Below, in pieces: positions 1,212 to 19,580 of a DNA stretch of 64,000 nucleotides (positions are counted from its first letter, which is position 1; every line of letters starts with the position of its first letter). The notes under the pieces were generated by a model that searched no databases, was not told the origin of the DNA, and was given only the letters and a program-made list of their open reading frames with translations. The stretch comes from Caldinitratiruptor microaerophilus (GTDB lineage Bacteria; Bacillota; Sulfobacillia; Symbiobacteriales; ZC4RG38): positions 124,001-188,000 of the forward strand of contig NZ_AP025628.1 in assembly GCF_025999835.1 (NCBI RefSeq), in the 5' to 3' direction. Position numbers and translations under genes: made by a program.

Positions 1212-2357
1212 GTGCAGGGGAGGCACCACGAGATGGCGGTGGCTGCCCGACGGCTGCTGCAGGGGAACGAAGCTTGTGCGGAAGCGGCCATCGCGGCAGG
1301 GTGTCGCTTCTACGCCGGATACCCGATCACCCCCTCGTCCGAGATCGCCGAGTACATGGCGCGCCGGTTGCCTGAGGTCGGCGGCACCTTCATCCAGATG
1401 GAAGACGAGATGGCCAGCATCGCCGCCTGCATCGGCGCTTCCCTCGCCGGGGTCCGGGCGATGACCGCAACGAGCGGACCTGGGTTCAGCCTCATGCAGG
1501 AGAACCTCGGCTACGCCTGCCTGGCCGAGATTCCGATCGTGGTCGTCGACGTACAGCGGGTGGGGCCCAGCACGGGTATGCCCACGCTGCCGTCTCAAGG
1601 TGACGTCATGCAGGCCCGGTGGGGGACCCATGGTGATCACCCCATCGTGGTGCTCGTGCCGGCCTCTGTGGCGGAGTACTACGAGCTCACCGTGAAAGCG
1701 TTCCAGATCTCGGAGATCCTGCGGACGCCGGTGGTGCTCTTGGCGGATGAGGTTGTGGCCCACATGCGCGAGGTGGTCTCCGTGCCGGCCGAGGTGACGG
1801 TGAAAGAGAGGCCGACCCCCGCCGTGCCGCCGGAGGCATACGTGCCCTATCGGGTGTCGGCGCCGGACGAGGTGCCACCCATGGCACCGCTGGGCAGCGG
1901 CTACCGGTTTCACGTCACCGGCCTGTACCACGGCGAGGACGGGTTCCCGACGAACGACCCGCGCGTGGCCGAAGCCCTCATCCGGCGGCTTCACGCGAAA
2001 ATCGAGGCGAGGCGCGACCTTCTCACCCTGGCGACCCGCCACTATCTGGAGGATGCCGACGTGGCCGTGGTCGCCTACGGCTCACCCGTACGGGCGGCGC
2101 TGCGGGCGGTGCGCGAAGCCAGGGCGCTGGGCGTGAGGGCCGGGCTCCTCCAGCTCTCCTGTATCTGGCCCTTCCCCTCGCACCTGGTGCGGGAGCTGGC
2201 TCAACAGGTGCGTGCGTTGGCGGTGCCCGAGATGAACCTGGGCCAACTGGTCGGCGAGGTCGAGCGCGCCGCTGCCGGGTTGGTCCCGGTGCGGTCGCTC
2301 TCCCGTGTCGGCGGCGAACTGTTCACACCCGACGAGATCCTCCAGGCACTGGTCTGA
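1212..2357 (+). CDS. korA: 2-oxoacid:ferredoxin oxidoreductase, alpha subunit
   Basis: Alpha subunit of a four-subunit 2-oxoacid:acceptor oxidoreductase, which decarboxylates a 2-oxoacid and forms acyl-CoA while reducing ferredoxin. Family motifs are clear: GYPITPSSEI near residue 36, MEDEMASIAA, TATSGPGFSLM and DVQRVGPSTGMP. At 381 residues it has the normal length of a separate alpha chain. The start is a GTG preceded by AGGGAGGG. The gamma, delta and beta genes follow within 15 bases or overlap, so all four form one operon. The substrate cannot be read from sequence: pyruvate, 2-oxoglutarate, branched-chain or aryl 2-oxoacids are all possible. Its place in a B12-mutase regulon suggests a pathway-specific 2-oxoacid. 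Confidence 0.9.
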   Translation: MQGRHHEMAVAARRLLQGNEACAEAAIAAGCRFYAGYPITPSSEIAEYMARRLPEVGGTFIQMEDEMASIAACIGASLAGVRAMTATSGPGFSLMQENLGYACLAEIPIVVVDVQRVGPSTGMPTLPSQGDVMQARWGTHGDHPIVVLVPASVAEYYELTVKAFQISEILRTPVVLLADEVVAHMREVVSVPAEVTVKERPTPAVPPEAYVPYRVSAPDEVPPMAPLGSGYRFHVTGLYHGEDGFPTNDPRVAEALIRRLHAKIEARRDLLTLATRHYLEDADVAVVAYGSPVRAALRAVREARALGVRAGLLQLSCIWPFPSHLVRELAQQVRALAVPEMNLGQLVGEVERAAAGLVPVRSLSRVGGELFTPDEILQALV

Positions 2358-2371
2358 AAGGGGCGGGCCTG

Positions 2372-2974
2372 ATGGGTGACCGTACGGCCGTGCAAGAGCT
2401 TTCCCGTACACAGAGGCGGCGCCACGAGGTGCGCCTGGCGGGTAGTGGCGGCCAGGGCCTGATCCTGGCCGGGATCATCCTGGCCGAGGCCGCCGGGCTC
2501 TACGACGGGCTCCACGTCGTCCAGACCCAGGTGTACGGCCCCGAGTCCCGCGGGGGGGCCAGCCGGGCCGACGTGATCATCAGCCCGGACGAGATCGACT
2601 ACCCGAAGGCGACCACCCCGCAGGCCCTGCTGGTGATGAGCCAGGATGCCTACGACCGCTTTGCCCGTACTCTGGCGCCCGGCGGACTGCTGCTCCATGA
2701 CTCGAGCATGGTCGAGCACCGATACGTCCTGGGCGAAGGGCGACGCGTCGTGGGCTTGCCCTTCACCCGTGTTGCCCTTGAGGAACTGGGCCGCGCCATC
2801 GTGGCGACGATCATGGGTTTGGGGGTGCTGGTAGCCTGGACCGGAGTGGTCACGCCGGGAGCGCTGGAAAAGGCCGTGGCCGGGCGCGTTTCGGGCGGGA
2901 CCCGTGAGCTGAACCTGATGGCCCTTCGCCGGGGCTTCGACCTGGCACGGCAGGCGCGGGAGGGAACGCTGTGA
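2372..2974 (+). CDS. korC: 2-oxoacid:ferredoxin oxidoreductase, gamma subunit
   Basis: Gamma subunit (200 residues) of the same complex. The family's N-terminal motif LAGSGGQGLILAGIILAE begins near residue 15, followed by TQVYGPESRGGASRADVI and later LLVMSQDAYD. In this family the domain helps form the CoA-binding region. The alpha gene stops 14 bases upstream. The stop codon overlaps the GTG start of the ferredoxin gene (GTGA), which suggests translational coupling and fixed stoichiometry. Confidence 0.9.
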   Translation: MGDRTAVQELSRTQRRRHEVRLAGSGGQGLILAGIILAEAAGLYDGLHVVQTQVYGPESRGGASRADVIISPDEIDYPKATTPQALLVMSQDAYDRFARTLAPGGLLLHDSSMVEHRYVLGEGRRVVGLPFTRVALEELGRAIVATIMGLGVLVAWTGVVTPGALEKAVAGRVSGGTRELNLMALRRGFDLARQAREGTL

Positions 2975-3273
2975 GCGATACGCTGGCTTGCGCAGGGCAC
3001 GGGACCGGGATCGTCGACAGGGCGGAGGGGATTCACCGGGTTCGGGAAGACCCGGGGTGGCGCGAGAGCCCCGACACGCCGGAGATCGTCATCAACCGGG
3101 GGTACTGCAAGAAGTGCGGGATCTGCATCTCCATCTGCCCGGCGGACGTGTACGCGGCAGGCCCGGATGGCAGCCCGCAGGTGGTGGAACCTGACCGTTG
3201 CATCTGGTGTGAACGCTGCGAGATCTATTGCCCCGACTTCGCCATTCAGCTCCTGGGGGACAAGGCCTGGTAG
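2971..3273 (+). CDS. korD: 2-oxoacid:ferredoxin oxidoreductase, delta (ferredoxin) subunit
   Basis: A 100-residue 2x[4Fe-4S] ferredoxin-type subunit that passes electrons from the catalytic core to free ferredoxin. It has two clusters of the form CxxCxxCxxxCP: CKKCGICISICPADV and CIWCERCEIYCPDFA, at about residues 48-62 and 78-92. The N-terminal 45 residues are less conserved and contain no cluster. The GTG start overlaps the gamma-subunit stop by four bases. The beta subunit starts 50 bases downstream. Confidence 0.9.
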   Translation: MSDTLACAGHGTGIVDRAEGIHRVREDPGWRESPDTPEIVINRGYCKKCGICISICPADVYAAGPDGSPQVVEPDRCIWCERCEIYCPDFAIQLLGDKAW

Positions 3274-3323
3274 CGAGGTGTCCGCCGGGCCGACGCGAAG
3301 GTTCGAGCAGGGGGTTCAGACCC

Positions 3324-4145
3324 GTGCGCTACCTGGAGACGCAGGCGCTCGTGGCCGAGTACTTTCGGCCCAAGCTCCCCCACATCTGGTGTCCCGGCTG
3401 CGCCCACGGCATCATCACCAAGGCCCTGGTCAAGGCCATACAGGAACTCGACCTGGACCGGGACCGGACGGTGGTGGTCTCCGGCATCGGCTGTGCGTCG
3501 CGGGCCACGGGCTACCTCGACTTCGGGACCGTCCACGCCACCCACGGCCGGGCCCTGGCCTTTGCCACGGGGATCAAGGCAGCCCGCCCGGACCTGACCG
3601 TGATCGTGATCAGCGGCGACGGCGACGCGGCCGCGATCGGCGGAAACCACCTCATCCACGCGGCGCGCCGGAACATCGACCTGACGCTCATCGTGTACCA
3701 GAACGGGATTTACGGGATGACCGGGGGACAGTACGCCCCCACGACGGCCCCGGGTCATGTGACGACCACCTCCCCCGGTGGACACGTCGAAAGGGCCTTC
3801 GACCTGGCGGCTCTGGCAGCAGCCGCAGGCGCTACCTTCGTGGCCCGCTCCACGGCCTACCACTTCGACCTCACGGTCCAGCTCTTTCAGCGGGCCATCC
3901 GCCACCGAGGCTTCAGCTTCGTCGAGGCGATCTCGTCCTGTCCCACGTACGCCGGCCGATTGAACGGGCTCGAGACGGGACTGGACGCTCTCCTCTGGAT
4001 GCGGAACAACGCCGTGCCCGTCGGCACCGGCCAGGAGGGGGACGGCAGGTTCGAGATCGGCGTCATCCGGGAGTCCGAGGCGCCGGAATGGACGGAGGCT
4101 TACCGGCAGCTCAGCGTCAAGGCGCAGGCAGGGAGGAGGGTGTAA
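3324..4145 (+). CDS. korB: 2-oxoacid:ferredoxin oxidoreductase, beta subunit
   Basis: Catalytic beta subunit (273 residues) that binds thiamine diphosphate. WCPGC (about residue 22), GIGCASR and a distal ISSCPTY supply the Cys residues that bind the core [4Fe-4S] cluster in this family. ISGDGDAAAIGGNH is the TPP/Mg motif. The GTG at 3324 is chosen because GCAGGGGG lies just upstream and RYLETQ then PHIWCPGC gives the usual short N-terminus; the frame stays open further upstream but only overlaps the ferredoxin gene. One base after its stop begins an FAD oxidoreductase, so the flavoprotein is tightly linked to this complex. Confidence 0.9.
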   Translation: MRYLETQALVAEYFRPKLPHIWCPGCAHGIITKALVKAIQELDLDRDRTVVVSGIGCASRATGYLDFGTVHATHGRALAFATGIKAARPDLTVIVISGDGDAAAIGGNHLIHAARRNIDLTLIVYQNGIYGMTGGQYAPTTAPGHVTTTSPGGHVERAFDLAALAAAAGATFVARSTAYHFDLTVQLFQRAIRHRGFSFVEAISSCPTYAGRLNGLETGLDALLWMRNNAVPVGTGQEGDGRFEIGVIRESEAPEWTEAYRQLSVKAQAGRRV

Positions 4146-4146
4146 G

Positions 4147-5448
4147 ATGGCGCGAGTCGTCGTGGTGGGGGGCGGCTGGGCCGGCTGCGCGGCGGCCCTG
4201 GCGGCGGCGAAGGCCGGGGCGGAGGCGGTTCTCGTGGAGAAGACCGACATGCTCCTCGGCACCGGGCTCGTGGGCGGCATCATGAGGAACAACGGGCGGT
4301 TCACGGCCACCGAAGAGATGATCGCCATGGGCGCCGGCGAACTCTTCGAGGCCACGGACCGGGTGGCGACCCACCGGGGGATCGACTTCCCGGATCACCG
4401 CCACGCCACGCTGTACAACGTCACGCGCATCGAGCCGGAAGTACGGGCGGTGCTCCGGAAGGCGGGGGTCGACGTCCGCCTGCGCACGCGTATCACGGCC
4501 GTGCGCATGGAGGGTGAACGGATCCTCGCGGTGGCCTCACGCGGGGGTCCTCCCATCACCGGGGACGTGTTCATCGACACGACCGGCAGCGCCGGACCGC
4601 CCGGGAACTGCACGCGGTACGGGGAAGGCTGCGTCATGTGCGTGCTGCGGTGTCCCACCTTCGGAGGACGGGTGGGGCTGGCGGCGCTGTGCGGCGTTCG
4701 TGAGCTCCAGGCTGTCAACGCCGCCGGGAAGGTGGGCGCCTACAGCGGCTCGTGCAAGCTCGCCAAGGACTCCCTGGCCCCCGAGATCGTCGCAGAGCTG
4801 GAAGAGAAGGGCGTCGTGGTCGTGCCGATCCCTGACCGCCTCCAGGACACGACCAAGCTGGCGCTAAAGGCCTGCCAGCAGTACGCGACCGAAGCGTACG
4901 GCGAGAACCTCATTCTGCTGGACACCGGCCACGCCAAGCTGATGGCGCCGTACATGGACCTGGAGAAGCTCCGGGCGGTGCCGGGGTTCGAAGAGGCGCG
5001 CTACATCGACCCCTACGCTGGCGGGGTGGCCAACTCGGTGCGTTTTCTCGCCATCGCCCCGCATGATGTGGCCCTCCGGGTCGAGGGGGTGGCCAACCTG
5101 TACTGCGCCGGCGAGAAGGCAGGCCCCCTCGTCGGGCACACCGAGGCGATCTGCACCGGCACTCTGGCGGGGCACAACGCCGCTCGCCAGGCGTTCGGAC
5201 TCGAACCTGTGACGATCCCCGAGACGCTCGCGGTCGGCGACGCGATCGCATACGTCACCCGCCGTCTCGAGGAATCGGGCGGTCTGGGGAAGAAGTACAC
5301 CTTCTCGGGTTCCGTGTACTTCGAGCGGATGCGCCGGCTGGGCCTCTACACCACCGACGTGGACGCCGTCCGCCGGCGCGTGGAAGCGGCCGGGATGACC
5401 GGGTTCTTCGCACGCCCGGTGGCCCGGGCACAGGCGCACGCCGGTTAG
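4147..5448 (+). CDS. FAD-dependent oxidoreductase with conserved Cys motif (copy 1)
   Basis: A 433-residue flavoprotein of the FAD-dependent oxidoreductase type. The N-terminal VVVGGGWAGCAAALAAAKAG is a dinucleotide-binding fold, and CAGEKAGPLVGHTEAICTG near the C-terminus is the usual FAD-contacting end motif. Between them lies GCVMCVLRCPTFGG, a CxxCxxxC arrangement, followed by LCGV and GSCKLAKDSLAP. The same Cys residues recur in the second copy at 7004-8416, so they are probably functional, either as an iron-sulfur site or redox-active thiols. It starts one base after the 2-oxoacid oxidoreductase beta gene. The substrate is unknown; oxidation of an amino acid or hydroxy acid to the 2-oxoacid used by the neighbour is a reasonable inference. 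Confidence 0.75.
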   Translation: MARVVVVGGGWAGCAAALAAAKAGAEAVLVEKTDMLLGTGLVGGIMRNNGRFTATEEMIAMGAGELFEATDRVATHRGIDFPDHRHATLYNVTRIEPEVRAVLRKAGVDVRLRTRITAVRMEGERILAVASRGGPPITGDVFIDTTGSAGPPGNCTRYGEGCVMCVLRCPTFGGRVGLAALCGVRELQAVNAAGKVGAYSGSCKLAKDSLAPEIVAELEEKGVVVVPIPDRLQDTTKLALKACQQYATEAYGENLILLDTGHAKLMAPYMDLEKLRAVPGFEEARYIDPYAGGVANSVRFLAIAPHDVALRVEGVANLYCAGEKAGPLVGHTEAICTGTLAGHNAARQAFGLEPVTIPETLAVGDAIAYVTRRLEESGGLGKKYTFSGSVYFERMRRLGLYTTDVDAVRRRVEAAGMTGFFARPVARAQAHAG

Positions 5449-5668: not shown

Positions 5669-6106
5669 ATGCCAGACCCGTATGTGGGGGGGCTATTTCG
5701 GTCGAGTCCGTACGCCGCGCTGCGGGAGATCACCGGCACCGTGGTGGCCGTATTGGATGCCCGGCTGGCGGGGCGGGGGCTGAACCTGATCGCCCCGATC
5801 TCTCGATGCCTTCTGCGGGACGAGATCCACGAGCTGATCCTGACCACGGGGGCGGTCGGGCCGGGAGACCGGGTGGAGGACGTACACTACCTGGCGTTCT
5901 TCGAGGTCAGCCAGGGTGGGGTTGCCGTCGTCGGGCAGACCGTCCGGATCGCCGGGTACGAGGTCGGGCGCATCGCGGGGTTCGACGAGACGCACATGCC
6001 CAACCACATGAACGTCGTGTTGAGCGGACCCCGGGGGGTCACCGGCGGCGAGCTGGGACTGCAGCCGGGGGACCCTGTGATCATATCCGGCAGGCTGGGG
6101 GCCTGA
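5669..6106 (+). CDS. Unrecognised conserved-looking protein, 145 residues
   Basis: I do not recognise this family. It is a compact soluble protein without signal peptide or membrane segment, rich in predicted beta strands (ITGTVVAVLDARL, YLAFFEVSQGGVAVVGQTVRIAG) and ending in LQPGDPVIISGRL. The ATG at 5669 is preferred because AGGTGGGGTGAG lies 10 bases upstream. The frame is open back to 5567, but that start falls inside the palindrome at 5551-5569. It lies 30 bases before the FCD regulator and downstream of the regulon operator, so it is probably co-expressed with the regulator. It could be a ligand-binding or enzyme-accessory protein; nothing more can be said. Confidence 0.7.
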   Translation: MPDPYVGGLFRSSPYAALREITGTVVAVLDARLAGRGLNLIAPISRCLLRDEIHELILTTGAVGPGDRVEDVHYLAFFEVSQGGVAVVGQTVRIAGYEVGRIAGFDETHMPNHMNVVLSGPRGVTGGELGLQPGDPVIISGRLGA

Positions 6107-6136: not shown

Positions 6137-6856
6137 ATGACGCGGAGTAACCCGGAGGACGTCGAGTTCCTGATCCTGGAGTGCCTCGGCCAGGCGGGCA
6201 GCCCGCTGGGCTGCGGTGCCGTCGCGGATTACCTGCGCCGCCACGGCCACCCGGTGAGCGAGGCGACGGCAGGCCGGCTGCTACGGGATCTGGATCTGCG
6301 GGGCTATACCACCCGCGCCGGATTTCGAGGGCGCTCGCTTACGGAGGTGGGACTGGCTCGGTTGGGCAGCCTGCGGCAGAGCCGCACCCTTTCGAGCTAC
6401 AGCTCCGAACTGCTTGAAGCGCTGAGCGCTACGCGGGTCGAAGAGGTGATCGACATCCTAGTGGCCCGAAGGGCCGTCGAACGGGAAACCGCCCGCCTGG
6501 CAGCGGAGAGGGCCGGCCCGGAGGACGTGGCGGCCCTGGAGGTCATCCTGGACCGGTATGAGAAGGCCGATTCGGCGGCGGCCATGGCGCGGGCCGACAT
6601 GGAGTTCCACCAGAAGCTCGCCGAGATTGCCGGCAACCGGGTTCTCGAGGCGGCTACCCGCCTGGTTCACGGAGAGGTGGCAACCACCCCGCTGCCGCCG
6701 TCCGTCTCCCGGCGGATGCACAGGCGGCTGGCGGAGGAGCACCGCCGGATCCTCGAGTCGATCCGGGCCCGTGACCCGGAAGCGGCCGAGCGGGCCATGG
6801 TACGTCACATCGAGGGCATCATGGAGGCGGTGCGGCAGCACGCCGTAGCCCACTGA
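6137..6856 (+). CDS. FCD-domain transcriptional regulator with atypical winged helix
   Basis: A 239-residue regulator. Residues 85-232 look like the FCD ligand-binding domain of FadR-type GntR proteins: EVIDILVARRAVERETARLA, then DMEFHQKLAEIAGNRV, EEHRRILESI and MVRHIEGIM supply the Asp and three His that normally bind a metal and a carboxylate ligand. The N-terminal 80 residues form a winged helix (LILECLGQAG through RGYTTRAGFRGRSLTEVGLA), but not the usual GntR pattern; it is closer to the wHTH found before NrpR-like and RNase R-like proteins. It lies in the middle of six copies of a 19-bp palindrome and is the natural candidate to bind them, with a small carboxylic or amino acid as effector (inference). 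Confidence 0.85.
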   Translation: MTRSNPEDVEFLILECLGQAGSPLGCGAVADYLRRHGHPVSEATAGRLLRDLDLRGYTTRAGFRGRSLTEVGLARLGSLRQSRTLSSYSSELLEALSATRVEEVIDILVARRAVERETARLAAERAGPEDVAALEVILDRYEKADSAAAMARADMEFHQKLAEIAGNRVLEAATRLVHGEVATTPLPPSVSRRMHRRLAEEHRRILESIRARDPEAAERAMVRHIEGIMEAVRQHAVAH

Positions 6857-6923: not shown

Positions 6924-7003
6924 AATCCGCCCACCCGACCGCGTCGCTCGGTGCGGGGAGGTGGCGGCAGATGGTGGCAGACGGCGGTAGGGGAGGGAGA
7001 GAG

Positions 7004-8416
7004 ATGGCACGTGTCGTGGTCGTCGGCGGCGGGTGGTCGGGCGTCTCGGCGGCCATCGCGCTGGCGAAGGCCGGGGTGGAGGAGGTCCACCTGTTCGAAA
7101 AGACCGACCAGCTCCTGGGCACCGGGCTCGTCGGGGGCATCATGCGGAACAACGGCCGGTGGACGGCGGCGGAGGAGATGATCGCCCTGGGGATGGGCGA
7201 GCCCTTCGAGGCCGTCGACGCCTGCGCCCGACATAAAGATGTCAATTTCCCGGGGCACGAGCACGCCACGCTGTACGACGTGACTCGCATCGAGCCCTAC
7301 GTCCGGCGGATCGTGGAGCAGTACGGGGTCCAGGTCCACATGATGTCCCGCGTGACCGATGTCATCCTCGAGGAGGTGCCGGCGCCGCCCTCGGAACGGG
7401 GCGGGTTCTGGACCCTGCTGGGGCAGCGGGTCCCGAAGCCGGCCAAGAACAAGCGGATCCGTGCCGTCCAGTACTACGAGAAGCACGGCGCGGACTTCCG
7501 CGGCCCGTACACACTGGAAGCCGATGTGTTCGTCGAGACCACGGGCACGGTGGGCCCGCAGTCGGAGTGCGCCCGCTATGGCAACGGCTGCGTGATGTGC
7601 GTCATCCGTTGCCCCACGTTCGGGGGACGGGTATCGATCGCGGGGCTCTGCGGGGTGCCCGAGATGATCGGGGGAGCCAACCCGGAGAGCCTGGGTTCCT
7701 TCAGCGGGTCCTGCAAGCTGATCAAGGAGTCTCTGGCGCCCTGGATCGTCGAGGAGCTCGACCGTACGGGCGTGTGCATCGTGCCCCTGCCGGACGAGAT
7801 GATCGACCGGGAGAAACTCAAGAAGAAGGCCTGCCAGCAGTACGCCGGTAAGGAGTTCGCGGAAAACATCGTCCTCCTGGACACCGGACACGCCAAGCTG
7901 ATGACATCCTACTTCCCCCTGGAGAAGTTGCGCCGCATTCCTGGTTTCGAGAACGCCCGCTACGACGACCCGTACTCGGGCGGTATCGGCAACTCCGTGC
8001 GTTACCTGGCGATCAGCCCGCGGGACAACTACCTGCGGGTCGGTGGGGTGGAGAACCTCTTCTGCGGCGGCGAGAAGGCGGGGCCGCTGGTGGGTCATAC
8101 CGAGGCCATCGTCACCGGGACCCTGGCGGGGCACAACGCCGCCCGGTACGCCTTGGGACTGCCCCTGCTCGAGCTGCCGAGGCAGCTGGCGGTCGGTGAT
8201 GCCATCGCCTTCGTCAACGAGCAGATCCGTGAGGGCGGGCTGTTCAAAAAGTACACCTTTTCCGGTGCCACTTACTTCGACCGGATGGTCGCCACCGGCC
8301 TGTACATCATGGACCGCGACATGATCCGGGCGAAGGTGGAGTCCCTCGGCCTCACCGGAGTCTTCGCCCGGCGGCTCGTGCCGGCCCGGGAGTCCCTACT
8401 GCTCGCGGGCGACTGA
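7004..8416 (+). CDS. FAD-dependent oxidoreductase with conserved Cys motif (copy 2)
   Basis: A 470-residue paralogue of the flavoprotein at 4147-5448. It shares the N-terminal VVVVGGGWSGVSAAIALAKAG fold, GIMRNNGRWTAAEEMIA, the motif GCVMCVIRCPTFGGRV, GSCKLIKESLAPWIV and KKACQQYAGKEFAENIVLLD. It differs by an insertion of about 35 residues near residue 125 (EEVPAPPSERGGFW to FRGPYTLEADV). The ATG at 7004 is chosen because GGGAGGGAG precedes it and it aligns with copy 1. An in-frame ATG at 6917 lies inside the palindrome and has no ribosome site. It is probably monocistronic, since a strong hairpin follows the stop. The two copies may act on successive or related substrates, or form a complex with different partners. 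Confidence 0.75.
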   Translation: MARVVVVGGGWSGVSAAIALAKAGVEEVHLFEKTDQLLGTGLVGGIMRNNGRWTAAEEMIALGMGEPFEAVDACARHKDVNFPGHEHATLYDVTRIEPYVRRIVEQYGVQVHMMSRVTDVILEEVPAPPSERGGFWTLLGQRVPKPAKNKRIRAVQYYEKHGADFRGPYTLEADVFVETTGTVGPQSECARYGNGCVMCVIRCPTFGGRVSIAGLCGVPEMIGGANPESLGSFSGSCKLIKESLAPWIVEELDRTGVCIVPLPDEMIDREKLKKKACQQYAGKEFAENIVLLDTGHAKLMTSYFPLEKLRRIPGFENARYDDPYSGGIGNSVRYLAISPRDNYLRVGGVENLFCGGEKAGPLVGHTEAIVTGTLAGHNAARYALGLPLLELPRQLAVGDAIAFVNEQIREGGLFKKYTFSGATYFDRMVATGLYIMDRDMIRAKVESLGLTGVFARRLVPARESLLLAGD

Positions 8417-8527: not shown

Positions 8528-8554
8528 GAAGCCGGCCGAAGGGGGGTGCCACCC

Positions 8555-8992
8555 GTGGCCCACTTCATCACAGAAAAGTGCATCGGTTGCACGGCGTGCG
8601 TGCTGGCCTGCCCTGTCGACTGCATCAGCGGTACCTGGAAGGAGCGCCACGTCATCGACCGGGGCCGGTGCATCGACTGCAGCGCTTGCGCGGCGGTCTG
8701 CCCTGTGGACGCCATCACCGGGTGGTGGGTGAGGGAACGGGTGGTGCGCCGCCCCGACTGGCCCGTGCCGGTGGTGAACCCCGAGCACTGCACGGGCTGC
8801 GACTTCTGCGTTCAGATCTGCCCCACGGGGTGCCTGGAACTGATCGGAGGCGGGCAGTTCGAGGGAATCGCCCAACTGGTGCGGGAGGCCGACTGCATCT
8901 CGTGCCGGCAGTGCGAGGAGGTGTGCGCCAAGGGCGCGATCACGATGGTCGTGCTTGGCGAGAAGAAGCAGCGCGAAGCGGGGGCCGCCTGA
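8555..8992 (+). CDS. Ferredoxin-like protein with four [4Fe-4S] motifs
   Basis: A 145-residue electron carrier with four CxxCxxCxxxC motifs: CIGCTACVLACPVDC, CIDCSACAAVCPVDA, CTGCDFCVQICPTGC and CISCRQCEEVCAKGA, at about residues 9, 37, 76 and 112. The fourth lacks the usual Pro after its last Cys. It is soluble, with no signal or membrane segment. The GTG at 8555 fits AAGGGGGG eight bases upstream; a GTG at 8546 overlaps that ribosome site. It leads the operon that includes the B12-dependent mutase, and may accept electrons from the two flavoproteins or the 2-oxoacid oxidoreductases (inference). Confidence 0.85.
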   Translation: MAHFITEKCIGCTACVLACPVDCISGTWKERHVIDRGRCIDCSACAAVCPVDAITGWWVRERVVRRPDWPVPVVNPEHCTGCDFCVQICPTGCLELIGGGQFEGIAQLVREADCISCRQCEEVCAKGAITMVVLGEKKQREAGAA

Positions 8993-9055
8993 GGCGCGGG
9001 GATGTCCCAGGCACGGGCCCCTGGCCCAATCCGACTTCCGTGGAGGGGACTTGAC

Positions 9056-10537
9056 ATGGGCGAGTTCAGGTACCGGTTCCAGCTCTACAAAGCCCTCCAG
9101 GCCAGCATCCCGGCCATCTACGCTGAGGCCCGGAAGGCGGCGGATGAGATCGGCATCCCGCCCGAGTGGCGGGGGAAGTTTGGCCTCACCGGAGCCATCT
9201 CCGGGACTCCGGCTCCCCTTCGGCGGGACATCCTGGCCGCCTCCGAAGCCGGGGCCGCGGAAGTCATCCCGCTGGCGACGCTGGTCGAGCAGATCCGGGA
9301 GATCGTGAAGGACGTGTACGGGGACGAATGGGACGTGTGCCCCGTGAACACGGCCGAAGCAGGGCTGTGGGTGGCCTTCGACACGCTGTGTACGCCCCCG
9401 GCCCTGGGGCGGGGGGACAATTATCGGGCCCGCTACATCGCCCCCCTCGAGAAGCACATGCACCATCAGGCCAGCTACGGGCGGCCCTTCCCGGCGAAGT
9501 ACAAGGACTTCCTGGCCGACCGCGGGACGACGGCCGGCGAGATGGGGTTCTACGGGAAGCGGCAGAACAACCTGGACACGGTCATCGTCCCGCTCGAAGG
9601 GGCCCAGTACCCCAACCACGGCATCAAGTACTGGCCGGTGCCCCTCCTCACGGGGGTCGACCCGGAGGCTTCGGCCCGCCGCATCGCCCGCGTGGCCGCG
9701 CAGCATGCGGAACTCCTCACGGGGTTCACCTCCCTCGGGTACGATACGCCCGGCTACGGGTACGGCGTCAAGGCGGAAGACGGGGCGCCCCTTCTCCAGA
9801 AACGTATCGGCGAGATCGCCCGGGATTACAACGTGCCCTACATCGTCGACAACGCGTGGGGACTGCCCTTCGTGGGGACCGACCCGCGGAAGATCGGCTG
9901 CGATGTCATGGTCTACTCCATGGACAAGGCAACCGGCGCCGCCACCTCGGGCCTGCTCATCGGCCGTGAGGACGTCATGGTCACCATCCGGCGCGCCCTC
10001 GGCATGCACGGGGACCGGTACGGCACCCTGGCTTCCTACGGCAAGGCGGCCTACGTCACCCAGGATCCCGGAAAGGAGGCACTTCTCACCCAGATCCAGG
10101 CGCTCAAGGTCCTACGGGACCGGCCGGAGGTCATCACCGACCCAGTGGATCGCCTCTACGAGATCGTGGTGGAGGAACTGGAGGGCCTGCCGACGGCCAT
10201 CCGTTCCGGGATCCTGGTCAGCAAGTCCTACAACTCCGGGGCGGTCGAGGTCAACTACGAGGGTACGTGGAAGGATGGGCGCATCGGGCTCCCCATCTTC
10301 TCCATCGAGGACATGTACGCCGGGACCAACATCTTCCAATCGGGCCTCGCCCAGATGGGCATCATCCCGACCATCGCGTACGACGCCAACATCTTCATCT
10401 CGCCGGGGCTCGGCACGACCGACCCGGACGGGGCACTGCGGGAGGACAAGGCCCGCCTGGCGGTCCGGGGCCTGGTGGCCCTCATGGGGATCGTGGCCCG
10501 CTACGCGGGGCTCGCGGCGGAGGCCGCGGTGTCCTGA
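9056..10537 (+). CDS. Fold-type I PLP-dependent enzyme of unknown reaction
   Basis: A 493-residue enzyme. IVDNAWGLPFVG gives an Asp at residue 265 that should contact the PLP ring nitrogen, and VYSMDKATGAATSG gives a Lys at 291 as the likely Schiff-base residue. That spacing is typical of the aminotransferase/decarboxylase superfamily. The N-terminal half is unlike common aminotransferases. It carries HMHHQASYGRPFP, and the C-terminal half has NSGAVEVNYEGTW and PGLGTTDPDGALREDKARLAVRGLVAL. I cannot name a subfamily. It is not the fold-type II thiolase (OrtB) of ornithine fermentation. The ATG at 9056 follows TGGAGGGGA. It precedes the small domain protein and mutase by 56 bases, so it should act on the mutase substrate or product, for example as a lyase, transaminase or racemase. 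Confidence 0.7.
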   Translation: MGEFRYRFQLYKALQASIPAIYAEARKAADEIGIPPEWRGKFGLTGAISGTPAPLRRDILAASEAGAAEVIPLATLVEQIREIVKDVYGDEWDVCPVNTAEAGLWVAFDTLCTPPALGRGDNYRARYIAPLEKHMHHQASYGRPFPAKYKDFLADRGTTAGEMGFYGKRQNNLDTVIVPLEGAQYPNHGIKYWPVPLLTGVDPEASARRIARVAAQHAELLTGFTSLGYDTPGYGYGVKAEDGAPLLQKRIGEIARDYNVPYIVDNAWGLPFVGTDPRKIGCDVMVYSMDKATGAATSGLLIGREDVMVTIRRALGMHGDRYGTLASYGKAAYVTQDPGKEALLTQIQALKVLRDRPEVITDPVDRLYEIVVEELEGLPTAIRSGILVSKSYNSGAVEVNYEGTWKDGRIGLPIFSIEDMYAGTNIFQSGLAQMGIIPTIAYDANIFISPGLGTTDPDGALREDKARLAVRGLVALMGIVARYAGLAAEAAVS

Positions 10538-10593: not shown

Positions 10594-10857
10594 ATGGTGC
10601 ACGGCAACGCTACATGGAGTCGCGCGGTGCTGGACGGGGTGGACGTGGAGACCTTCCTGGTTTGCCGGGACGAGGGGGAGGGTCGCCAGCTCATGCTGGC
10701 CCTGATGAACAGCATGGGGTTCCAGGACGTGGACATCGTCTTCATCGAGCACCGGGGGCCAGGCGCGCGGGTCCGGGGCCGGGCATACCTCCATCGCCCC
10801 GGCGAGAGCCATCCCTTCGGAGAGGCCCCGCAGCGCCCGGGGGAGGGTCGTGCGTGA
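10594..10857 (+). CDS. Small aminomutase-type dimerisation-domain-like protein
   Basis: An 87-residue protein. The stretch from about residue 12 to 55 (VDVETFLVCRDEGEGRQLML, then NSMGFQDVDIVFIEHRGPG and VRGRAYL) resembles the alpha/beta domain that precedes the B12-binding domain in lysine 5,6-aminomutase beta (KamE) and ornithine 4,5-aminomutase (OraE). Here it is a free-standing gene. The start follows AGGGGGGAG. Its stop overlaps the GTG start of the mutase (GTGA), so the two proteins are probably made in equal amounts and form a complex. The similarity is judged by eye from pattern and length and needs a profile search. Confidence 0.6.
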   Translation: MVHGNATWSRAVLDGVDVETFLVCRDEGEGRQLMLALMNSMGFQDVDIVFIEHRGPGARVRGRAYLHRPGESHPFGEAPQRPGEGRA

Positions 10858-12683
10858 GCGGGGAAGCAGCCAAACGTGTCCTGCTGGCCCCTCTGGATCC
10901 AGTGCACGACGTGGGGCTCAAGGTCATCCGGCGGGCGCTCGAGGCAGCCGGCCACACCACCATCCTGTTGCCTCCCGACGTGCCCCCCGAGGAGATCGTG
11001 GCAGCGGCGCTGGAGCACCAGGTCGACGTCGTCCTCCTGAGCCGGACCATTGGCTACCAGGTGGCCGAGGCGGCCGCCCGGTTCGCCGACCTGGCCGAGG
11101 CCGCGGGGCTCAGGGAGCGCGTGCGGATTGCGATCGGCGGCATGGCCATACGGCCCGAACTGGCGGCGGAGATGGGGTTCGACGCCGCATTCGGCCCCGG
11201 GACCACGCCCGAGGAGGCGGTGGCCTTCGTCGAGGGCCGTGAGCCGGCGCCCGGCGAGCAGCGCGGAGCGACCCGCCGCCGGCCGGCGCTGGCTCCCACC
11301 CGCACGTACCGGTACCGGCACGCGGAGATCGGCCGGCTCCTGGAGGAGATCGCCCAGGAGTTGCTGGCCTGGGCCCACGGGCGGCTGAGCCCCGGGGTGG
11401 AGCGGGCACAGCTCCGCCAGGCCATGATCCGGGCGGCCCGGGCCGGGGAATCCACAGAGCGCCTCCGGCGGGAGTACGCACGTCTCACCGACGGAGCGGC
11501 CGCTGCCTTCTACGCGCGGGGGGACCTGCCGCCCGGGCTGCGCCGGCTGGAGGCCGGCGAACTCCAAGCCATCCGCCGCTACGCCGAGAGGGCGAACGCC
11601 GCACCGGCTGGCCCCGAACTCCGGCACGGGCAGGACACCCTGGTGTTCACGCAGTACGGGACGGGGTGCCCGATCCACGACATCGCGCACATCAAGGTCC
11701 TCGAAGGCTGGTCGGTGGACGGCGTCATCCATTTCGACCCCGCCTGGGGGGCCCGAACGGAGGGCCTGCTGGAGGGGGCGTTCACACACCAGCGCGACGG
11801 GACGGTGATCACGCCCGAGAACCTCCAGCACATCCGCGCAGGGCTGGGGCCGTACACCCTCTGGCAGGTGAGGGCGCACCGGGGGCTTAACACGGCAGAG
11901 ACCGTCGTGCTGGCGGGCGAGTACGGTGCCGACGCGACCAAGATCAACATCGCCTACGGGTCCCTGTCTGGCGGCACAGACCCCGAACGGCTGGCGGTCG
12001 ACGGCCTGGCGGCGATGCGCTATGCAGCCGAGTACCGCCTGCCTTACGACGTCGTCACGAACGAAGAGCTTTCTGGCGTACCGGCGCACAAGGCGTTCGC
12101 CGGCATGCTGATCGTGGCCCACGTGGGGCGGAGGCTGGGCGGGACCCCTTACCTCCAGCCACTCTTCTGCAAGGGGCCGGAGGCCCTGATCCGGGGTCTC
12201 ATGGATGCCAACCACGTAGACTTCCACGCGGCCAAGATACTGGCCCTCCGGCGCATCGTCGACGCGCCCATATGGCCCGGGGCCCCGGTGGGCTTCATGA
12301 CCCACACCGAGGACCGGGTGCAGTCGAGTGTCACCACGGCGCTGCACGCGGCCCTGGGGGCGAGCCTGGGCGTGGAGGCGGTGACCATCGCCTCGTCTGA
12401 CGAGGCGTACTCCGGTGGCCCGATCACGGCCGCGTCCCGGGTCGACACCCTGCGCGCCGTGGCGGAGGCCCTTCGATTCTTCGGCCGGGCGCGGATCGAA
12501 CCGACGCCGGCGGCGGAAAGCCTGGCGGACGAACTCGTGGAAGGGATCGAACAGGTCCTGCGTCGGGTGGCGGAGGTCGGCTTCGTCCGGGCCCTTTACG
12601 AGGGGGTCCTGGGTTCGCCGGAGGAAGGCGGGCACCCCGGGCGCGCCGGCCGGGGAACGGTCTACGCACGAGCGGCCCGGTAG
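10854..12683 (+). CDS. Cobalamin-dependent mutase: N-terminal B12 domain fused to TIM-barrel domain
   Basis: A 609-residue protein. Residues 5-125 form a B12-binding Rossmann domain: LDPVHDVGLKVIRRALEAAG carries the base-replacing His at residue 18, then VLLSRTIGY and IAIGGMAIRP, and a FGPGTTPEEAVAFV end. Residues about 255-600 look like the substrate-binding barrel of an adenosylcobalamin mutase: GTGCPIHDIAHIKVLEGWSV, THQRDGTVITPENLQ, GADATKINIAYGSLSGGTD and IASSDEAYSGGPI. The order, B12 domain first, is the reverse of OraE. The usual D-x-H-x-x-G is altered to D-P-V-H-D-V-G, and the Lys-rich loop that holds PLP in KamE/OraE seems to be missing. It is therefore either a new aminomutase type or a carbon-skeleton mutase. 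GTG start overlapping the previous stop. Confidence 0.7.
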   Translation: MSGEAAKRVLLAPLDPVHDVGLKVIRRALEAAGHTTILLPPDVPPEEIVAAALEHQVDVVLLSRTIGYQVAEAAARFADLAEAAGLRERVRIAIGGMAIRPELAAEMGFDAAFGPGTTPEEAVAFVEGREPAPGEQRGATRRRPALAPTRTYRYRHAEIGRLLEEIAQELLAWAHGRLSPGVERAQLRQAMIRAARAGESTERLRREYARLTDGAAAAFYARGDLPPGLRRLEAGELQAIRRYAERANAAPAGPELRHGQDTLVFTQYGTGCPIHDIAHIKVLEGWSVDGVIHFDPAWGARTEGLLEGAFTHQRDGTVITPENLQHIRAGLGPYTLWQVRAHRGLNTAETVVLAGEYGADATKINIAYGSLSGGTDPERLAVDGLAAMRYAAEYRLPYDVVTNEELSGVPAHKAFAGMLIVAHVGRRLGGTPYLQPLFCKGPEALIRGLMDANHVDFHAAKILALRRIVDAPIWPGAPVGFMTHTEDRVQSSVTTALHAALGASLGVEAVTIASSDEAYSGGPITAASRVDTLRAVAEALRFFGRARIEPTPAAESLADELVEGIEQVLRRVAEVGFVRALYEGVLGSPEEGGHPGRAGRGTVYARAAR

Positions 12684-12706: not shown

Positions 12707-13798
12707 ATGGTGGCCATCGGTGTCGCCGGTACCGCGAAAAATACCGGCAAGACTACCACGTTGACCGCGCTCCTCCAGGTCGCGGCCGGTCTGGGCGCGC
12801 CGGTCGGGCTCACCTCGATCGGGTTCGACGGGGAAGACCTGGATCACCTGACCGGTCTGCCCAAGCCCCGCGTCGACGTCCCGGCGGGCACTTGGGTGGC
12901 CACCGCCCGTCCTCTGCTGAAGGTGGGAACGGCCCGGCTGGAGCCCGTGTCGGGCACCGGCGTCCAAACGGCCGTGGGCGAGGTGGTGTTGGCACGAGCG
13001 GAAGAAGCGGGTCGCGTGGTACTGGCCGGGCCGGCGACGGCGGCCGGGCTGCGGACGGTGCTGGCAGCTCTGCCCCGCAGCGGACTGTGCCTGGTCGACG
13101 GTGCCTTCGGCCGGATGGCGCCGATGCTGGCCACCCAGGGCCTGGTCCTGGCGACGGGGGCCGCGTACCGGCGGCAACTCCCGGCGCTCCTGGCGGAGAC
13201 GGCTGCCCTGGTATGGCTCTTCGAGCGTCCCGTTCTCGACCCTCCGGCCGGACCCGTGGTGCGGCTCCACGGGATCTTGACCCCGAATGATGCGAAACAG
13301 GCTTCCGAGGCGCTCCGGCGGTTTGGAGGCGCCGCGGGCGAACTCCGGTTGGTCCTGGGCGGCGTGGTCCCAGTCGCCGGCCTCGAGATCCTGGCGGAGG
13401 TCCTCGAAGCCCTCCCGATCGCCCCCGAGATCCAGTTCGACAACGTCATGTGCCTTGCCCTGGGTGGCCCGCCGCTGAAAGTGCGGGGCCTCCTCAGGCG
13501 ACTCGGGCGCCGCTCCAGGGTCGGGCTCGCCCGTGGGTTCCCGCTCCTGGCCGTGACCGTGAACCCGTTCTTCCCGGATGAGTCGGGCGGGAAGTTCCGC
13601 CCGGGCTACGTGGACGGCCAGCGCCTCAGGGAAGAGATGGCAGCCTCGCTCCCCGTGCCGGTGGTAGACGTCCGGCAGCAGGACGCGAGCACGGTTCTGC
13701 ACCAGGTTGTTGGAAACTTGTTATCCATGAGAGATCTTTCCATAGAAGGAATCAAACGAACCTCGTCGTATCTAAGCGTAGCACCCACTCACAAATGA
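12707..13798 (+). CDS. KamB-like P-loop protein, probable mutase reactivase component
   Basis: A 363-residue protein starting MVAIGVAGTAKNTGKTTTL. Residues 8-16 are a Walker A loop with an AKNTGKTT form that I associate with KamB, a reactivating-factor component of lysine 5,6-aminomutase clusters. Such factors release damaged cobalamin from the mutase using ATP. The rest is alpha/beta (VVLAGPATAAGLRTVLAALP, LVDGAFGRMAPMLATQGLVLATG) with no membrane segment. The ATG at 12707 follows TGGAGGG and comes 23 bases after the mutase. No KamC-like partner gene follows. The last 20 codons are unusually AT-rich and run into the palindrome at 13786-13804, so the 3' end doubles as the promoter region of the ABC importer. 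Confidence 0.65.
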   Translation: MVAIGVAGTAKNTGKTTTLTALLQVAAGLGAPVGLTSIGFDGEDLDHLTGLPKPRVDVPAGTWVATARPLLKVGTARLEPVSGTGVQTAVGEVVLARAEEAGRVVLAGPATAAGLRTVLAALPRSGLCLVDGAFGRMAPMLATQGLVLATGAAYRRQLPALLAETAALVWLFERPVLDPPAGPVVRLHGILTPNDAKQASEALRRFGGAAGELRLVLGGVVPVAGLEILAEVLEALPIAPEIQFDNVMCLALGGPPLKVRGLLRRLGRRSRVGLARGFPLLAVTVNPFFPDESGGKFRPGYVDGQRLREEMAASLPVPVVDVRQQDASTVLHQVVGNLLSMRDLSIEGIKRTSSYLSVAPTHK

Positions 13799-13804
13799 TG
13801 AGCG
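13786..13804. promoter_or_regulatory. Regulon palindrome, site 5
   Basis: CACTCAC-AAATG-ATGAGCG: the right arm is perfect and the left arm has two changes from consensus. It overlaps the stop codon of the KamB-like gene and lies 122 bases before the start of the ABC substrate-binding protein. The surrounding 13690-13800 stretch is much more AT-rich than its neighbours, as expected for a promoter. Confidence 0.65.
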
Positions 13805-13926
13805 ATGGCGGCAACGGGCGTAACGGAGGGGGGTGGAGGCCGCGGACGGCTACATACACCCATCTATCGGAGTATTCGGTTAGAAGACAAGTCAGGGTAC
13901 AAGCCAAGCTCAGGGAGGGGACTCGA

Positions 13927-15093
13927 GTGAGGAACGGTAATCTCATACGGCACCAAGCGAAGGTTCTGTTGCTGGCGGTGACCCTCGTCACGTCGCTTTC
14001 CGCCTGTGGCGGCCAGAAGCCGGCAACCCCCGCCGGTACCCAGGATGGGCAGGCACAGCAGCAGGCTCCCACCGGGCAGCAAGCTCAGGCCAGCACCACG
14101 GCGCAGGCGCCCCAGCAGCCGGCGTCCCAGACCGCCAAGTTGGCGCCGCTCAGTCCGCCGGTGAAGATCTGGATCGCAGAGGACGGCTCACCCTCAGGTG
14201 CGGGGTTCTACATCGCGAAGGAGAAGGGGTACTTCGCTGAGTTTGGCATCGAGGCGGATATCCGGCCGTTCGAGTCGTCGAAGGACATGCTCCCGGCCAT
14301 CGCCTCGGACGAGGTGCAAGTCGCGGGTGGCATCCTGGGGGCCAACCTGTTCAACGCGGTGTCCCGGGGCCTGAACATCAAGATCATCGCAGACAAGGGT
14401 ACGAACAACCCCGGCAAATCGTACTACAGCATGGTGGTCCGCAAGGACCTGGCAGGCCAGATCAAGGACTACAAGGACCTCAAGGGCCATAAGATCGGCC
14501 TCTTCTCCGTGGGCACGCTCAACGAATACACGGTGGAGAAGGCCCTCCTGAAGGGTGGCCTCACCGTGAAGGACGTCGAGCTGGTCCCCCTGGGACCGCC
14601 GGACATCAGCGTGGCGCTGGCTCGCAAGTCCATCGACCTGGGCATGCACATCGAGCCCCTCATCACGCAGGGTGTGAAGCAAGGGATCTTCGAGCGGTGG
14701 AAAGACACCACAGACTTCCTGCCCGACGCACAGATCGCCGTGGTGCTGGCGAGCCCGAAGTTCGTGGCCAACGAGGCGCTGTCAAAGCGGTTCATGGTGG
14801 CTTACCTGCGGGCTCTGCGGGATTACAACGACGCATTCCTGAAGGGCAAGGGGAAGGACCAGATCATCGACATTCTGGCAAAGTACACCGATCTGAAGGA
14901 CAAGTCCCTCTGGAATGACGTGTACGTCACCGGGCTCAACCCCAACGGCCAGGTCAATGTGAAGAGCCTCGAAGACCAGCTCCAGTGGTACAAGGAGAAG
15001 GGCACGGTAACGGGCAACGTCGATCTGAATCACGTCGTCGACCTGTCGCTGGCGAAGTTCGCGGTCGAGTACCTTGGCGGCGAGTACAAGTAG
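13927..15093 (+). CDS. ABC transporter substrate-binding lipoprotein, NMT1/TauA type
   Basis: A 388-residue secreted lipoprotein. A short basic N-terminus and the hydrophobic VLLLAVTLVTSLSAC give a lipobox with Cys near residue 23, followed by a low-complexity Gln/Ala/Pro linker of about 50 residues. The binding domain starts KIWIAEDGSPSGAGFYIAKEKGYF, the hallmark of the nitrate/sulfonate/taurine/pyrimidine-precursor group. The GTG at 13927 is chosen because CAGGGAGGGG lies seven bases upstream and it places the signal peptide at the N-terminus. Permease and ATPase genes follow. The ligand is unknown; its position in the palindrome regulon suggests it delivers the substrate of the B12-dependent pathway. 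Confidence 0.85.
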   Translation: MRNGNLIRHQAKVLLLAVTLVTSLSACGGQKPATPAGTQDGQAQQQAPTGQQAQASTTAQAPQQPASQTAKLAPLSPPVKIWIAEDGSPSGAGFYIAKEKGYFAEFGIEADIRPFESSKDMLPAIASDEVQVAGGILGANLFNAVSRGLNIKIIADKGTNNPGKSYYSMVVRKDLAGQIKDYKDLKGHKIGLFSVGTLNEYTVEKALLKGGLTVKDVELVPLGPPDISVALARKSIDLGMHIEPLITQGVKQGIFERWKDTTDFLPDAQIAVVLASPKFVANEALSKRFMVAYLRALRDYNDAFLKGKGKDQIIDILAKYTDLKDKSLWNDVYVTGLNPNGQVNVKSLEDQLQWYKEKGTVTGNVDLNHVVDLSLAKFAVEYLGGEYK

Positions 15094-15103
15094 CGAGTCG
15101 GCT

Positions 15104-15138
15104 CGGCAGCCAGGTGCTGAACGGGCGCCTGGCTGCCG
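15104..15138 (+). repeat. Stem-loop between substrate-binding protein and permease genes
   Basis: Left arm CGGCAGCCAGGTGC (15104-15117) pairs with 15125-15138 over 14 bp with one G-U pair, leaving a 7-nt loop. It begins 11 bases after the binding-protein stop codon and has no T-tract. Such intercistronic stems commonly protect the upstream mRNA, giving more binding protein than permease. Confidence 0.7.
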
Positions 15139-15166
15139 GCCGGGGCCGGCAGAGGGAGGGTTCCCC

Positions 15167-16060
15167 TTGGCTTATCAGGAGGCGTCGGCTCGGACCAAAC
15201 GGAGGGCGGTGACTTCCCCCGCGCCCGGGCCAGCTCCTCAACCGGTTCACGGTGGGAGCACGAGGGCGCAGGGTCGATCGGGCCGGGAGTGGACGAGCAG
15301 GCAGAAGCAGCGCCGGCGGGAACGGATCATGTCTGTCCTCTCGCCGGTTGCCCTGCTGGTGCTCTGGGAGATGCTCGTGCGCTTGAAACTCCTGGACGCC
15401 CGCTTCTTCCCGCCGCCCTCCGGGATCGTTGGCACGTTCGTGGACCTCCTCGTCTCCGGGGAGCTCTTGCAGGCGCTGCTGATCAGTCTGTCGCGGATCT
15501 TCATCGGGTTCGTGGTCGGCGCCGTGCCCGGACTTCTCATCGGCCTCACGATGGGACTGTTCCCGCTGGTGCGGGCCGCGCTGGAGCCGATGGTCGCTGC
15601 CCTCTATCCCATTCCAAAGATCGCCTTGCTGCCCCTCATCATGATCCTTTTCGGCATCGGCGAGTGGTCCAAGTACATCACGATCGCGATCGGCGTCTTC
15701 TTTCTGGTGCTCATCAACACCGTGGCAGGCGTTGTCAACATCGACCGGATCTACCTGGATGTGGCCCGGAACTTCGGGGCCAGCCGCAAGGATTTCTACA
15801 CCACCATTGCGTTGCCCGGGGCCCTTCCCCTCATCTTCACCGGCATCAAGCTCGGGATGGGCATGGCGCTGCTCCTGATCGTGGCGGCGGAGATGATCGG
15901 TGCCAAGAGCGGAATCGGGTACATGATCTGGACCGGGTACGACACCTTCTACCTCGAGAAGATGTACGTCGGCCTCGTCATCATGTCGTTCCTGGGCTAC
16001 GTGTTTACCCTCGTGCTCGACGAGCTCGAGCGGTGGATCATCCCGTGGAAGCACTCGTGA
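15167..16060 (+). CDS. ABC transporter permease, TauC/SsuC type
   Basis: A 297-residue inner-membrane permease. After a polar, basic N-terminus of about 50 residues come six or so membrane helices starting at [38 protein letters not shown] is the cytoplasmic loop that docks the ATPase. The TTG at 15167 is preferred because AGAGGGAGGG lies six bases upstream. The frame is open further back, but that would run through the stem-loop at 15104-15138. Its stop overlaps a possible start of the ATPase gene by one base. Confidence 0.85.
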
Positions 16061-16077
16061 TGGGGAGGGAAAGGCGC

Positions 16078-16890
16078 GTGGAACGTCCGGTGAAGATCTC
16101 GGTCCGGAACCTCACCAAAGTGTTCCAGTCCCGGGGACGGCGTGTGACCGCGATCGACGACGTCAGCTTCACAGTGCCCGACGGCACGTTCCTGGCGATC
16201 GTTGGCCCCAGCGGGTGCGGGAAGACGACCCTGCTGCGGATCCTGGCCGGGCTGGAGGAGCCTACCTCCGGCGTGCTGGAGGTGCGCCAGACCGACCGCG
16301 GCCGGCCGGTGAACTCGATGGTGTTCCAGGAGCAGTCAATCCTCCCGTGGATGACGGTCCGGGACAACGTCGCATACGGCCTCCGGCTGCGCGGGGTGGA
16401 CCGGCACGAGCGCTGTAAGGTGGCCGACCACTACATCCAGATGGTCGGCCTCACGCGGTTCGCCGATGCATACCCCCACCAACTCAGCGGCGGCATGAAG
16501 CAACGGGTCTCCATCGCCCGGGCGTTCGCCAACGACCCCGAGATTCTCCTGATGGACGAGCCGTTTGCGGCTCTGGACGAGCAGAACAAGATCCTCCTGC
16601 AGCAGGAACTCCTACGCATCTGGGAGGGAACGCGGAAGACCGTGTGCTACATCACCCATTCCATCGATGAGGCCCTCAACCTCAGCGACCGCGTGATGAT
16701 CATGACGGCCCACCCCGGCCGGGTGAAGGCGATCATCGACGTGGACCTCCCCCGGCCCCGTGACATCACGAAGATCCGGAGCCACCCACGGTTCGGCGAG
16801 CTGTTCGAGCAGATCTGGCTGTCGCTCCGGGACGAGGTCCTTAAGGCGAAGGCGGAGGAAGGCCTGGTGATGGCCGGCGCCGGAAACTGA
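16078..16890 (+). CDS. ABC transporter ATPase, TauB/SsuB type
   Basis: A 270-residue ATPase that powers the importer. Walker [12 protein letters not shown]-loop [11 protein letters not shown], signature [14 protein letters not shown] and Walker [14 protein letters not shown] are all intact, as is the switch His in [30 protein letters not shown] is typical of the nitrate/taurine group. The GTG at 16078 ([12 protein letters not shown]) has GGGGAGGGAAAG just upstream; an ATG at 16060 overlaps the permease stop but has no ribosome site of its own. Confidence 0.88.
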
Positions 16891-16956: not shown

Positions 16957-16980
16957 CATGCGGCCGTGGAGGGACGGAGC

Positions 16981-18711: not shown

Positions 18712-18713
18712 CG

Positions 18714-19580
18714 GTGGCGGTGGTCCTCGAGGAATTCAAGACCTCTGTCAAGCCCACCTGGTGTCCGGGCTGCGGCGACTTCGGCGTCATGAACGCCCTG
18801 GGGCGGGCCGTGGCTAGCCTCGGCATCCCGGGGCACGAAGTGGTGGTGGTCTCGGGCATCGGCTGCTCAGGAAAGATCTCGCAGCACTTCGGGGCGTACG
18901 GGATCCATACCCTGCATGGCCGGGTGCTACCGACCGCGACGGCGGTGAAGGTGGCGAACCGGTCCCTCACCGTGATCGCGGCCGGTGGCGACGGCGACGG
19001 GTACGGCATCGGCGTCGGGCATCTCGTGCACGCGGCCCGCCGCAACGTCGACATCACCTACGTGGTGATGGACAACCACATCTACGGCCTGACCACCGGG
19101 CAGACGTCTCCCACTTCCGACCCCGGTATGGCGACCAAGACACACCCCCGTGGTGCCTTCGAGGAGCCCGTGCACCCGCTGGCCTTGGCGATCGTATCGG
19201 GCGCCACGTTCGTGGCGCAGGGGTTCTCCGGTGACGTGAACGGGCTTGCCCGGATTCTGGCGGAGGCGATCCGGCATCCTGGCTTCGCGCTGGTCAACGT
19301 GTTCAGCCCCTGCGTGACGTTCAACAAGGTCAACACCTATGCCTGGTATCGCGAGTCGCTCACCTCGGTTGACGGGGACCCCGACTACGACCCGAGCGAC
19401 CGCATGGCGGCCCTGAGCCGGATCGAGGCTACGCGCGGCTTGGTAACGGGTATCCTGTACCGAAGTCGGCGGCCGACCTTTGAGTCCCAGTTGCCCGGGC
19501 TCGGGGAGAAGCCGCTCGCGGTGTTGCCGGCGGGCCTCTCCGGAGAGGATCTGGAGGACCTTCTTGCCGAGTTCGAGTGA
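18714..19580 (+). CDS. korB: 2-oxoacid:acceptor oxidoreductase, beta subunit (second system)
   Basis: A 288-residue TPP-binding beta subunit. TWCPGCGDFGVM, SGIGCSGK and VFSPCVTFNKVNTY carry the cluster Cys residues; AAGGDGDGYGIG is the TPP/Mg motif; DNHIYGLTTGQTSPTS is the conserved active-site loop. The GTG at 18714 has GAGAGAGGTGG upstream. It is co-transcribed with the fused gamma-alpha gene and followed six bases later by a DMT-type permease, so the permease probably moves a substrate or product of the pathway. Confidence 0.9.
   Translation: MAVVLEEFKTSVKPTWCPGCGDFGVMNALGRAVASLGIPGHEVVVVSGIGCSGKISQHFGAYGIHTLHGRVLPTATAVKVANRSLTVIAAGGDGDGYGIGVGHLVHAARRNVDITYVVMDNHIYGLTTGQTSPTSDPGMATKTHPRGAFEEPVHPLALAIVSGATFVAQGFSGDVNGLARILAEAIRHPGFALVNVFSPCVTFNKVNTYAWYRESLTSVDGDPDYDPSDRMAALSRIEATRGLVTGILYRSRRPTFESQLPGLGEKPLAVLPAGLSGEDLEDLLAEFE

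Follow-up and report, generated by a model that had tools for sequence, protein, structure and literature searches.

Two overlapping genes of Caldinitratiruptor microaerophilus probably encode an AdoCbl radical mutase, a sister to lysine 5,6-aminomutase (LAM) and D-ornithine 4,5-aminomutase (OAM) in which the canonical PLP site is lost and the substrate is bound directly; its operon appears to be catabolic and includes a PLP enzyme as a separate protein. The domain layout of this gene pair and its family are established by computation. Dependence on AdoCbl, inferred from computation alone, is very likely, and there is good support for loss of the canonical PLP site; an enzyme using no PLP at all is an inference. 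Whether the pair is indeed a PLP-independent AdoCbl radical mutase on the LAM/OAM scaffold, whose rearrangement and catabolic pathway are both undescribed and whose pathway is common in one phylum, is in our judgment an even call.

Identification of the gene pair and its domains

The sequence studied (positions 124,001-188,000 of the forward strand of NZ_AP025628.1, assembly GCF_025999835.1) is a window of 64,000 nt, within which the following features make up the gene pair:

10594..10857, + strand: small subunit, 87 aa, a KamE/OraE-type small (dimerisation) domain on its own chain (AlphaFold2, PDB fold matches, hhalign to KamE)
10854..12683, + strand: large subunit of 609 aa, beginning with GTG, a B12 domain and then a TIM barrel (Pfam, AlphaFold2, fold matches; full-length conservation)
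10854..11252, + strand: B12-binding Rossmann domain, large-protein residues 1-133, with His18 in the motif DPVHDxG (Pfam, hhalign)
11310..12680, + strand: KamD-like TIM barrel with its helical lead-in, residues 153-609 (fold matches, hhalign to KamD)

The stop of the small gene and the start of the large gene share 4 bp (GTGA, 10854-10857); the ORF positions, their sizes and this four-base overlap agree with the first-pass annotation. A chance ORF or an annotation artefact is ruled out, because dozens of genomes conserve the two ORFs together, and searches of a phage and of a plasmid collection for the origin of the pair gave no match in either. The two genes form a real pair that is unnamed in current family libraries, since in Pfam the large protein matches only through its B12-binding domain and the small one not at all, and NCBIfam returns only partial B12-domain matches for the large protein, the best of them to LAM beta and OraE.

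The AlphaFold2 model of the small protein (pLDDT 84) finds its best PDB matches in the small domain of OAM (residues 503-591) and the N-domain of LAM beta (Z 6.5-7.1, the next unrelated match reaching 5.6). The absolute fold scores are modest, which is expected given the shortness of the protein, and the top matches are exactly the predicted domains. A profile comparison with KamE by hhalign (E 9e-6, score 38.8 vs. a shuffle maximum of 23) likewise bears out the earlier proposal that the 87-residue protein is the KamE/OraE small domain.

The large protein starts, as had also been proposed, with a B12 Rossmann domain, supported by Pfam (PF02310, E 2.4e-19), by hhalign to KamE (E 1.7e-22) and OraE (E 6e-15), by a fold search in which residues 1-133 of the model match B12 domains, and by the lower-ligand His18, invariant in 43 sequences. 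The remainder of the AlphaFold2 model (pLDDT 87.6, built with 43 sequences) has LAM alpha as its top fold match in Foldseek and VIA-align (E 2e-14, Z 32, 392 residues, model 156-609 vs. chain 13-505), followed by glutamate mutase E (GlmE, Z 26) and OAM (Z 25.7). The C-terminal AdoCbl-mutase TIM barrel claimed in the first-pass annotation is thus confirmed, and the objection that this part might be no TIM barrel falls away; only its extent needs correction, as the LAM-like part begins at ~153 and not at 250. A colinear hhalign match to KamD (E 4e-7, score 61 vs. a shuffle maximum of 23) covers the barrel, resting on ~15% identity, with short segments alone not significant; PF09043 (Lys-AminoMut_A) was absent among the Pfam matches of the large protein at E up to 1. 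On the basis of such comparisons the family is a deep third branch beside LAM and OAM, because the LAM and OAM barrels (E 1e-32) are closer to each other than either is to it.

The layout, small / B12-barrel across two genes, is opposite in domain order to OAM, where OraE reads barrel-small-B12. In LAM, KamE contains the small and B12 domains and KamD is a separate barrel, so that reading across the two genes gives KamE and then KamD, with the break between genes shifted by one domain. The idea that no described enzyme has such a layout is supported, with two qualifications: the order is indeed reversed relative to OraE, and no characterised enzyme in PDB, Pfam or NCBIfam matches the large protein end to end (a match that would have refuted the idea), but the KamE-KamD order is the same and a B12-first fusion is known. 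In IcmF, the fused isobutyryl-CoA mutase, the B12 domain is N-terminal, ahead of the mutase barrel, as in the large protein; a G-protein domain lies between the two, and the barrel is one for a CoA substrate. Because of this known B12-first fusion to a mutase barrel, the domain order alone is unusual, not unique.

Conservation and genomic context

Of 398 genomes sampled from the window's phylum, 39 gave a match along the whole length of the large protein in a profile search, and a genome scan revealed full-length homologues, 58-59% identical, in three Paenibacillus genomes. Related loci were compared (n=43; 44 with the window); mean column identity is 69% for the large and 51% for the small protein. 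The two genes co-occur in all 44 cases, the small gene lying directly upstream of the large one in 43 (window included); in the single exception, L047, it is found elsewhere in the same genome, adjoining kamB, which corrects an initial reading of this locus as lacking it. No homologue shows a fusion of the small and large proteins, the small gene being always separate; the N-terminal extensions of L046 and L077, considered as candidate fusions, are just longer open frames with the small gene in another frame. The gene-pair family is widespread and apparently undescribed.

In the window the pair is surrounded by the following genes:

1212..4145, + strand: 2-oxoacid:ferredoxin oxidoreductase, four subunits, at the upstream end of the gene run (beta by NCBIfam; the other three read from ORFs)
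4147..5448, + strand: MnmG/TrmFO-like flavoprotein (31 of 43 related loci)
5669..6106, + strand: DUF6917 protein (PF21891), function unknown (48% identical to the L053 protein, which matches PF21891 at 1.6e-49)
6137..6856, + strand: FCD-domain (GntR-type) regulator (30 of 43 related loci)
6995..8416, + strand: second MnmG/TrmFO-like flavoprotein (longest ORF from 6917)
8546..8992, + strand: polyferredoxin
9002..10537, + strand: PLP-dependent fold-type-I enzyme, weakly similar to SelA, DgaE and sulfhydrylase, possibly starting at 9053 (35 of 43 related loci have an orthologue)
12707..13798, + strand: KamB-like reactivase, next gene downstream of the large gene (NCBIfam NF052386, 186.2 bits)

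In addition to the counts given in the list, KamB is present in 37 of the 43 related loci, DUF6917 in 33, RidA in 22 and a transporter in 17; the operon of the window itself has no RidA gene. The KamB score is just under the curated cut-off of 210, and a relative from L053, 32% identical, is over it (254.9 bits). This KamB presumably serves the enzyme described here, as the window genome has neither a LAM/OAM barrel (no PF09043 match, search at 1e-30) nor a KamC orthologue (only MutS-like matches). The Paenibacillus homologues have no KamB, and in place of the PLP enzyme their loci carry one of the Cys/Met-lyase type together with an ornithine-cyclodeaminase-type protein, a swap that fits a PLP step next to the mutase but does not fit one fixed enzyme. 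The 2-oxoacid:ferredoxin oxidoreductase at the start of the gene run suggests a 2-oxo acid intermediate. The neighbourhood is best read as a catabolic operon that combines the mutase with a distinct PLP enzyme, a flavoprotein, RidA and this oxidoreductase. No riboswitch hints at the substrate: Rfam gave no match in window positions 1-22000, and none is placed to control the operon in 23 related loci scanned; in L061 a cobalamin riboswitch (11191-11401) lies downstream of the mutase locus, apparently for another gene. Open-access literature yielded nothing on DUF6917, the KamB/KamC reactivase or the operon.

Several neighbours deserve a remark of their own. The DUF6917 protein, a regular partner of the mutase that is found in Paenibacillus too, may itself belong to the pathway. 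The PLP enzyme shares ~67-73% identity with most of its relatives and only weak similarity with solved or named families, apparently representing an uncharacterised family of its own. Both flavoproteins carry an invariant Cys-rich motif, and several relatives have a second copy after an iron-sulphur reductase-like gene. Gene sets for 2-oxoacid:ferredoxin oxidoreductase occur three times within 32 kb (1212-4145, 16966-19580 and 29572-32201). Sulfonate/taurine-type ABC transporter genes (13795-16890) directly follow kamB and are not conserved with the mutase in relatives.

The active site and the question of PLP

In LAM, PLP is contacted by K144beta, S238, Y263, N299, R184, R268 and S189, mostly common to OAM (PMC3958899); in OAM, E338 is the Glu that drives Co-C cleavage and contacts the adenosyl ribose (PMC4413051). 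Mapped on the large protein, R184 becomes D, S189 A, Y236 A, S238 R and R268 G/A, with identical columns in two MAFFT modes, and the Arg-to-D295 and Tyr-to-Y368 assignments are reproduced independently by hhalign to KamD and to OraE. The Schiff-base K144beta aligns with invariant L29 (K629 of OAM falls in a gap of the OraE comparison), the column of LAM K370 / OAM R is Gly, and the placement of N299 is inconsistent. Schiff-base Lys, both phosphate Arg, the phosphate Ser and the pyridine Ser are replaced in all sampled sequences. Two residues are retained: the stacking Tyr (Y263, equivalent to Tyr187 of OAM) as invariant Y368, and the adenosyl-contacting Glu (OAM E338) as invariant E517. Given the alignment, every mappable PLP-site residue is replaced except the stacking Tyr. 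New invariant residues appear in the barrel (R301, R340, H342, R343, K363, E404 and E405); K413 and K461 are invariant there as well. K23 was weighed as a PLP lysine but not adopted, because ordinary B12 domains often have a Lys close to His-x-x-Gly.

This loss, overlooked by the first-pass annotation, argues more strongly for a new reaction than the order of the domains does. The new rearrangement proposed there gains support from the replaced PLP-site residues, and as a reaction it remains an inference. No characterised homologue was found.

With LAM (KamD/KamE, PF09043, NF052385; 1XRS, 8T0V, 9Q1A) the pair shares the three domains, the barrel fold, a colinear profile match and a linked KamB; it differs in the fusion of the B12 domain to the barrel N-terminus, the split-off small domain, the replaced PLP residues and the lack of a KamC match in the window genome. 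With OAM (OraE/OraS; 3KOW-3KP1), more distant than LAM by both profile and fold, it shares the three domains and the equivalents of E338, the lower-ligand His and Tyr187, but not K629 or the other PLP residues. Because a defining feature, the PLP site, was looked for without being found, we did not file the pair as a lysine or ornithine aminomutase.

Alternative interpretations

Loss of the known PLP residues is not proof of PLP loss, as another site could be built around invariant K363 and Y368. The enzyme might still be a PLP- and AdoCbl-dependent 1,2-aminomutase with PLP on a relocated lysine (e.g. K363, on barrel strand 4) stacked by Tyr368. We consider this unlikely: the invariant Tyr and the three invariant barrel lysines would permit it, and to date it is in PLP-dependent aminomutases that KamB and the small domain have been described, but it has to contend with the replacement of the Schiff-base, phosphate and pyridine residues in every sampled sequence and with the Gly in the K370 column. 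That the pair is no mutase, and acts as a corrinoid methyltransferase or merely senses B12 without catalysis, could be imagined from the B12 domain, which matches corrinoid proteins too; it is very improbable in view of the mutase barrels as best barrel matches, the invariant adenosyl-contacting Glu and the linkage to KamB, a reactivase of AdoCbl enzymes.

A special case of our preferred explanation, the PLP-site-less radical mutase, is a carbon-skeleton mutase like glutamate mutase (GlmE/GlmS, PF06368), in which an amino acid would be held through its carboxylates by barrel Arg, with no second cofactor. GlmE is the second-best barrel fold match, a Glu-Ala motif lies at the same barrel end, and the segments QVR...NIxY and xxDEAxxGxP resemble QVRHG...NIPY and TPHEAxGIP in the GlmE sequences compared. 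A direct sequence link had nevertheless to be rejected: PF06368 is absent among the Pfam matches of the large protein, the profile comparison is not significant (hhalign probability 0.8%), and individual segments score no better than shuffled ones. Glutamate mutase has no small domain. This version stays possible and rather doubtful.

Proposed reaction and significance

In the mechanism that we favor, that of a radical mutase without the canonical PLP site, the B12 domain would swing over the barrel and the Co-C bond would break, upon which the 5'-deoxyadenosyl radical would abstract H from a substrate bound directly by invariant R301, R340, H342, R343, E404 and E405 and not via PLP. The substrate, not identified, is likely to be an amino acid or some different carboxylate. 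The product may then pass to the separate PLP enzyme, RidA (where present) may hydrolyse an enamine/imine to a 2-oxo acid, and the adjacent ferredoxin oxidoreductase may oxidise the latter, with KamB restoring the cofactor after inactivation. The order of these pathway steps is inferred from gene neighbours alone.

To our knowledge, few reactions of AdoCbl radical mutases have been described. LAM and OAM are rare enzymes that use B12 as well as B6 (PMC3958899). If a sister family has kept the scaffold, the reactivase and the Glu that contacts the adenosyl group while losing the B6 site, it would reveal how radical mutases came to gain or lose PLP. The family also points to an unknown pathway, and its conserved operon supplies concrete partners for finding the substrate.
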